Assembly: GCA_030550025.1 (NCBI GenBank)
Contig: JAUQQC010000006.1
Span: 62,001 to 126,000 of the forward strand
Source of the DNA: Acidobacteriota bacterium
GTDB taxonomy: Bacteria > Acidobacteriota > Blastocatellia > HR10
DNA length: 64,000 bases
Direction of reading: 5' to 3'
The position numbers and the translations under genes were made by a program. Below are positions 10,210 through 11,070 of the stretch, piece after piece (positions within the stretch are counted from its first letter, which is position 1; every line of letters begins with the position of its first letter). Below the pieces are notes generated by a model. That model did not search any database, had not been told where the DNA came from, and saw nothing but the letters and a program-made list of their open reading frames with translations.

Positions 10210-11070
10210 ATGAGACGCGTGCCGTTCTGTAAGCTTCAGGCTCTGGGCAACGACTTCATCGTCGTCGCTCGTGAACACGTCTCGGAGGGAGAGATCGCCC
10301 GATGGGCGGCGCGGTGGTGTCATCGTCATTTCGGCATCGGCGCCGATGGGGTGATCGAGGTCGCCCCGTTGCCTTCCGAGTCGGAAGCGGATTTCGAGAT
10401 GCGCCTCTGGAACGCCGATGGGACGGAAGCGGAGATCTCCGGCAATGGCCTTCGCTGTCTGGCCGCGTATCTCGTGTTCACGGAGCGATGGCGAGAGCCG
10501 GTCGTGCGCATCCGAACGAAGGCGGGGGTGAAACGCCTGGAGCAGATTCGGCGCGAGGGGACGCGCTTTGAATTCCTCGCCGATATGGGGACGCCTGCGC
10601 TCTCCAGCGCCGCGGTCCCGATGGCTCTAGAGCCCGTGCGTTCGCGCGTCGTGGGGGTTCCGATTCGCGTCCACGAGCGCGAGATTCCGATCACCGCGTG
10701 TTCCTTGGGAAATCCGCACTGCGTTGTCTTCGTGGAAGACTTCGCCGTGGTAGACATTCGGCAAATGGGGGCGGCCATCGAGCGACATCCGCTCTTTCCC
10801 GAACGGACCAACGTGGAATTCGTGCGCGTTCGGGATCGTCAGAACCTCGAACTGCGGATGTGGGAGCGCGGCGTGGGGGAAACGCTCTCTTCGGGGACGG
10901 GAGCCTCGGCGGCGCTCGTCGCGGCCGTGCTCAATGGACTGGCGGAGAGGGAGGCGTGGGTGCACACTCCGGCCGGCGCGTTGCGCGTCCGGTGGCAGCC
11001 GGATGACCGCATCGTCGTCGAAGGATCAGCGGAGGTCCTCTTTTTCGGGGAATGGGTGGGGCCCATATGA
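10210..11070 (+). CDS. dapF: Diaminopimelate epimerase homologue with Ser/Ser active site
   Basis: The 286-residue protein has the two-lobed DapF fold and conserved stretches such as KLQALGNDF, FGIGADG, SLGNPHCVVF and ERTNVEFV. The usual enzyme inverts LL-diaminopimelate to the meso form with two cysteines, in (M/C)CGNG and ACG(T/S)GA. Here these read ISGNGLRC and SSGTGAS, so the expected cysteines are Ser77 and Ser228; the codons are TCC and TCG. Everything else looks intact. It could be an active variant, act on another substrate, or need a second DapF elsewhere. It overlaps the next gene by four bases and follows the HIT gene by three. Confidence 0.8.
   Translation: MRRVPFCKLQALGNDFIVVAREHVSEGEIARWAARWCHRHFGIGADGVIEVAPLPSESEADFEMRLWNADGTEAEISGNGLRCLAAYLVFTERWREPVVRIRTKAGVKRLEQIRREGTRFEFLADMGTPALSSAAVPMALEPVRSRVVGVPIRVHEREIPITACSLGNPHCVVFVEDFAVVDIRQMGAAIERHPLFPERTNVEFVRVRDRQNLELRMWERGVGETLSSGTGASAALVAAVLNGLAEREAWVHTPAGALRVRWQPDDRIVVEGSAEVLFFGEWVGPI

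Follow-up and report, generated by a model that had tools for sequence, protein, structure and literature searches.

A diaminopimelate epimerase homologue with serine at both catalytic cysteine positions is shared by most of the Acidobacteriota

The window, a 64,000-nucleotide stretch of the genome of a member of the Acidobacteriota (class Blastocatellia), carries at positions 10210..11070 of the forward strand a gene for a 286-residue homologue of DapF, the diaminopimelate (DAP) epimerase. The gene lies in an ordinary housekeeping run, as the first-pass annotation had described, and annotation of the neighbours gives the order RNase PH, prmC, HIT, dapF, DUF2007, a comF-like gene, SurA/PPIase, rpmB, RidA and relA/spoT. 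The DapF profile TIGR00652 matches the product over residues 6–281 with 231.7 bits, which passes the cut-off of 114.65, and a domain search finds it to be encoded by the sole PF01678 gene of its genome, with no second DapF.

The two catalytic motifs read ISGNG and LSSGTGAS in the translated open reading frame, and alignment with solved DapF structures places Ser77 (codon TCC, 10438..10440, forward strand) and Ser228 (codon TCG, 10891..10893, forward strand) at the positions of catalytic Cys73 and Cys217 (E. coli numbering). The double replacement that had been read from the DNA is thus confirmed. Two catalytic cysteines are one of the hallmarks of DapF as represented by TIGR00652 and PF01678; since both are replaced, by Ser77 and Ser228, the window protein is classed as a Ser/Ser variant rather than as a canonical DapF. 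The same alignment locates, on the forward strand, Asn168-Pro-His170 (10711..10719; E. coli Asn157 and His159), of which the asparagine is a DAP contact, and Glu219-Arg220 (10864..10869; E. coli E208 and R209), which are both DAP contacts.

An AlphaFold2 model of the protein (pLDDT 95.2) has the two-domain DapF fold, and its best matches in the PDB are ligand-bound, closed DAP epimerases, with a TM score of 0.90 to 9mro and 3ejx. Known DapF structures have their catalytic cysteines at helix N-termini (PMC12039745), and in the model Ser77 and Ser228 sit directly before the predicted helices 78–90 and 229–241. The model also matches the fold of the hydroxyproline enzymes, at just 11–17% identity.

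When E. coli DapF is added to the alignment of the main Ser/Ser clade (107 sequences), residues N11, N64, G74, N75, N157, N190, E208 and R209 (E. coli numbering), which structural work on DapF has established as DAP contacts, are found to be 99–100% conserved, with N157, E208 and R209 at 100%. The window protein carries all eight, in keeping with the earlier statement that the remaining fold motifs are intact. A DAP-contact role for the active-site residues of DapF is supported in outline by published work (PMC12039745). In comparison with Cys/Cys proteins of other phyla, a complete exchange of the residue is confined to the two serine positions. Two further positions have shifted: His159 is histidine in 71% of the main clade versus 100% of the outside set, and position 82 is alanine in 93% of the clade versus lysine or arginine in 88% of the outside proteins. 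The column comparison found no compensating cysteine specific to the Ser/Ser clade. Cys37 and Cys83 were considered as such and rejected, the former as it is common elsewhere (99% in the Ser/Ser clade, 92% in acidobacterial Cys/Cys proteins and 44% outside) and the latter as it is general. Separately, the 59 acidobacterial Cys/Cys DapFs often lack DAP contacts which are retained in Ser/Ser proteins, with N157 present in 22% and G74 in 54%.

These contacts bear on the proposal, also raised in the first-pass annotation, that the protein has acquired a new substrate. DapF-like proteins that act on other amino acids do exist, such as HisR (PMC11602996) and O-ureidoserine racemase (7vdy), and the window protein could in principle epimerise a different amino acid in the same manner. 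However, conservation is 99% or more at the positions through which DAP is bound at its two ends, all of which are kept in the window protein, and the gene is the sole dapF of a genome whose DAP route is otherwise intact, which leaves a change of substrate highly improbable.

The distribution of the serine pair was surveyed in 247 Acidobacteriota genomes, from which the genes were fetched and aligned, and 174 genomes could be typed at both positions. Within the Blastocatellia all 50 fetched sequences, from 29 genera, are Ser/Ser. Across the typed genomes 112 have only Ser/Ser, 58 only Cys/Cys, three have Cys/Ser and one has both forms, whilst the reverse combination, Ser/Cys, occurs in none of the 174; when counted by family code, 42 are Ser/Ser only, 25 Cys/Cys only, three mixed and three Cys/Ser. 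The two catalytic positions switch jointly, almost without exception, and most of the phylum shares a DapF homologue that lacks the catalytic cysteines. A sensitive domain search found that nearly all acidobacterial genomes have one DapF gene, either Ser/Ser or Cys/Cys. Relatives from other phyla are Cys/Cys in 57 of 59 cases, so that restriction of the Ser/Ser form to the Acidobacteriota rests on 59 outside relatives, a small sample biased to close relatives. The remaining two (L054 and L059), from the Bacillota, have alanine or glycine in place of the first catalytic cysteine and retain the second.

An error in sequencing or assembly, or decay of the gene, was considered as the cause of the loss of both cysteines, and nothing was found in favour of it. 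The same pair recurs in 112 genomes, the serines are encoded across the phylum by all four TCN codons as well as AGC, and dapF is under purifying selection, with a dN/dS within the genus of about 0.11–0.17. This explanation was rejected and its probability is negligible, as the first-pass annotation had itself argued with respect to sequencing error. The same spread of serine codons led to the rejection of codon recoding.

A number of genomes depart from the general pattern. Three divergent acidobacterial DapFs (L220 in G063, L212 in G078 and L234 in G123) have cysteine at the first position and serine at the second, and are possible halfway forms. Five genomes of genus g55 in family f29 (L188, L193, L194, L197 and L200) contain an additional, separate Ser/Ser DapF-like gene with the motifs S-G-N/D-G-x-R-I/V and ASGSS, with which L192 (f71) groups; this extra gene may have a different function. 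In G117 the typed copy is an additional, divergent Cys/Cys DapF.

The phylogeny was estimated from an alignment from which the columns surrounding the catalytic sites had been removed, with trees that are quick searches. The main Ser/Ser group forms one clade of 76 genera with an SH-aLRT support of 98, or 96 under a mixture model, which answers positively the question of whether Ser/Ser defines a clade. Two small Ser/Ser groups lie outside it, one comprising f36 and f10 and the other a Geothrix-like extra copy together with f71. As a single Ser/Ser clade is absent from the best tree, yet is not rejected when imposed as a constraint (p-AU 0.174), one to three origins of the Ser/Ser form are indicated. 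Many of the acidobacterial Cys/Cys DapFs belong to a divergent type that has one inserted residue (ERGVExET). In place of the Ser/Ser form of its congeners G124 and G211, one member of genus g81, G252 (L255/L317), carries a Cys/Cys DapF of Bacteroidota-like type, an apparent gene replacement. Such standing-in of one form for the other is most easily understood if the two share one job, and suggests that they do.

It is also necessary to consider whether the cell needs the product of DapF. In the genome of the window organism dapB, dapA and dapD are consecutive genes, with murB and murA after them. The genome also has a lysA (320 bits against a cut-off of 298) and a MurE that carries the DNPR motif and matches the DAP-adding ligase with 551 bits (cut-off 373). 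MurE and LysA normally act on meso-DAP, and the presence of lysA, a DNPR-type murE and dapB-dapA-dapD therefore indicates that meso-DAP is needed. A DapE/ArgE-like protein encoded at C4 is ambiguous between DapE and ArgE, and DapC is likewise unsettled. The opposite case, in which meso-DAP is dispensable because LL-DAP or some other diamino acid serves MurE and LysA and DapF activity is low or unneeded, can draw on the fact that LL-DAP walls occur in some bacteria; the collection of papers searched contained none on the wall composition of a Blastocatellia strain. It is nevertheless very unlikely, given the equivalog score and motif of MurE, the presence of LysA, and the expectation that an unneeded DapF would not hold its dN/dS near 0.15 together with an invariant DAP site.

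If meso-DAP is required, a bypass would have to supply it in the absence of DapF activity. To our knowledge the only well-known route to meso-DAP without DapF is Ddh, and the corresponding domain (PF16654) is absent from the window genome and from 245 of the 247 Acidobacteriota; the two genomes that have it both belong to genus g62 of family f34, where the typed DapFs are Cys/Cys. Replacement through DapL, as proposed in the first-pass annotation, does not hold: DapL yields LL-DAP, so it cannot bypass DapF, and no protein of the window genome exceeds the TIGR03542 cut-off of 364.7 (the best aminotransferase reaches 116 bits). Across the phylum DapL is absent above the cut-off from 240 of 247 genomes and present in seven. 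The genome also gave no match to a YgeA-type racemase with the E. coli protein as query. The whole-genome check that had been called for, covering a second DapF, dapL and ddh, thus found none of the three.

Taken together, the sequence and model evidence suggests that the window protein is quite probably a working DAP epimerase, the only DapF of its cell, which uses a Ser/Ser acid–base pair. We infer three things here, namely that the protein is active, that DAP is its substrate and that the serines act as acid and base; the last is probable given that none of the other known enzymes could take on the role of DapF. Of the outcomes that had been envisaged at the outset, altered chemistry is thereby the one favoured. 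The enzyme would convert LL-DAP to meso-DAP, for lysine via LysA and for peptidoglycan via MurE. The two serines are predicted to face each other across the alpha-carbon of the substrate, each at the N-terminal end of a central helix, where one of them, deprotonated or strongly hydrogen-bonded within a closed, water-free pocket, would remove the alpha-proton and the other would return a proton from the opposite face.

Several observations count against serine chemistry. The C67S and C209S variants of HisR have strongly reduced activity, with most of it lost (PMC11602996), and the thiols of H. influenzae DapF have pKa values of 6.5 and 8.5 (PMC12039745), serine being a far weaker acid and more difficult to employ as a base. 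The relaxation of His159 in the main clade likewise counts against a serine epimerase. On the other side, within the proline racemase superfamily a Ser/Cys pair catalyses 4-hydroxyproline epimerisation, with the serine assigned to one direction of proton transfer, and a catalytic serine takes part in a dehydration within that related superfamily (PMC4113996, PMC4364671). The alternative is that the Ser/Ser protein binds DAP without epimerising it, in a regulatory or structural role or in another reaction of DAP, whilst an unrelated enzyme makes meso-DAP. The poor activity of the HisR mutants and the loosened H159 both speak for this, as does the finding that some relatives became dehydratases through replacement of a single acid/base residue (PMC4113996). 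It demands, however, that most of a phylum possess an epimerase not yet described, and it sits poorly with the single-copy exchange between Ser/Ser and Cys/Cys DapF and with a full set of substrate contacts that is kept more strictly than in the Cys/Cys proteins of the same phylum, so that we regard it as rather unlikely.

An active Ser/Ser DapF would have several consequences. There is a reasonable chance, somewhat better than even, that a whole phylum runs an essential wall step on a Ser/Ser cofactor-independent epimerase with little or no dependence on thiols, possibly immune to oxidation and to cysteine-directed inhibitors. DapF of C. glutamicum is inactivated by a disulfide (PMC5296763), and by analogy freedom from such inactivation might, speculatively, be the advantage of the Ser/Ser form. 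The puzzle of cofactor-independent racemases is that a thiolate with a pKa of about 8.5 takes a proton with a pKa of about 29. A natural and ancient Ser/Ser enzyme would demonstrate that catalysis can dispense with the thiol and that much of the work falls to the closed pocket and the helix dipoles, and a phylum in which one step is catalysed by Ser/Ser enzymes in some members and by Cys/Cys enzymes in others would offer a clean test pair. It would also make the requirement for two cysteines an unsafe rule for annotating DapF, and cysteine-directed DapF inhibitors and oxidative inactivation would be inapplicable to most Acidobacteriota.

The collection of papers searched held no report of a Ser/Ser epimerase in this fold superfamily, a Ser/Ser DapF included, and the protein is best placed by comparison with four known systems. 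It resembles the DapF family (TIGR00652; Anabaena 9mro, Arabidopsis 3ejx and E. coli 4ijz) in fold, length, profile score, DAP contacts, pathway context and the location of its two catalytic positions at helix N-termini, but differs in the change of both cysteines to serine and, with the main clade, in the relaxed His159 and the alanine in place of lysine or arginine at position 82. The Ser/Cys 4-hydroxyproline 2-epimerases and Ser/Thr trans-3-hydroxyproline dehydratases (PMC4113996) share the superfamily fold and use a serine at the first cysteine position as acid/base, but they have serine on one side only and belong to a different subfamily with different substrates; no Ser/Ser pair is described for the proline racemase superfamily in the literature examined, and the window protein, with serine on both faces, a DapF-type sequence and the DAP residues, is not a member of those classes. 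The C73S (2q9h) and C217S (2q9j) forms of H. influenzae DapF contain the identical swaps singly and retain the fold, although these are engineered single mutants as opposed to a natural, conserved pair. Finally, the Cys/Thr aspartate/glutamate racemases EcL-DER and MMP0739 (PMC8142540) are cofactor-independent enzymes in which a hydroxyl residue naturally takes the place of a catalytic cysteine, whereas they belong to another fold family, carry the substitution on one side only and are described or predicted to be one-directional.
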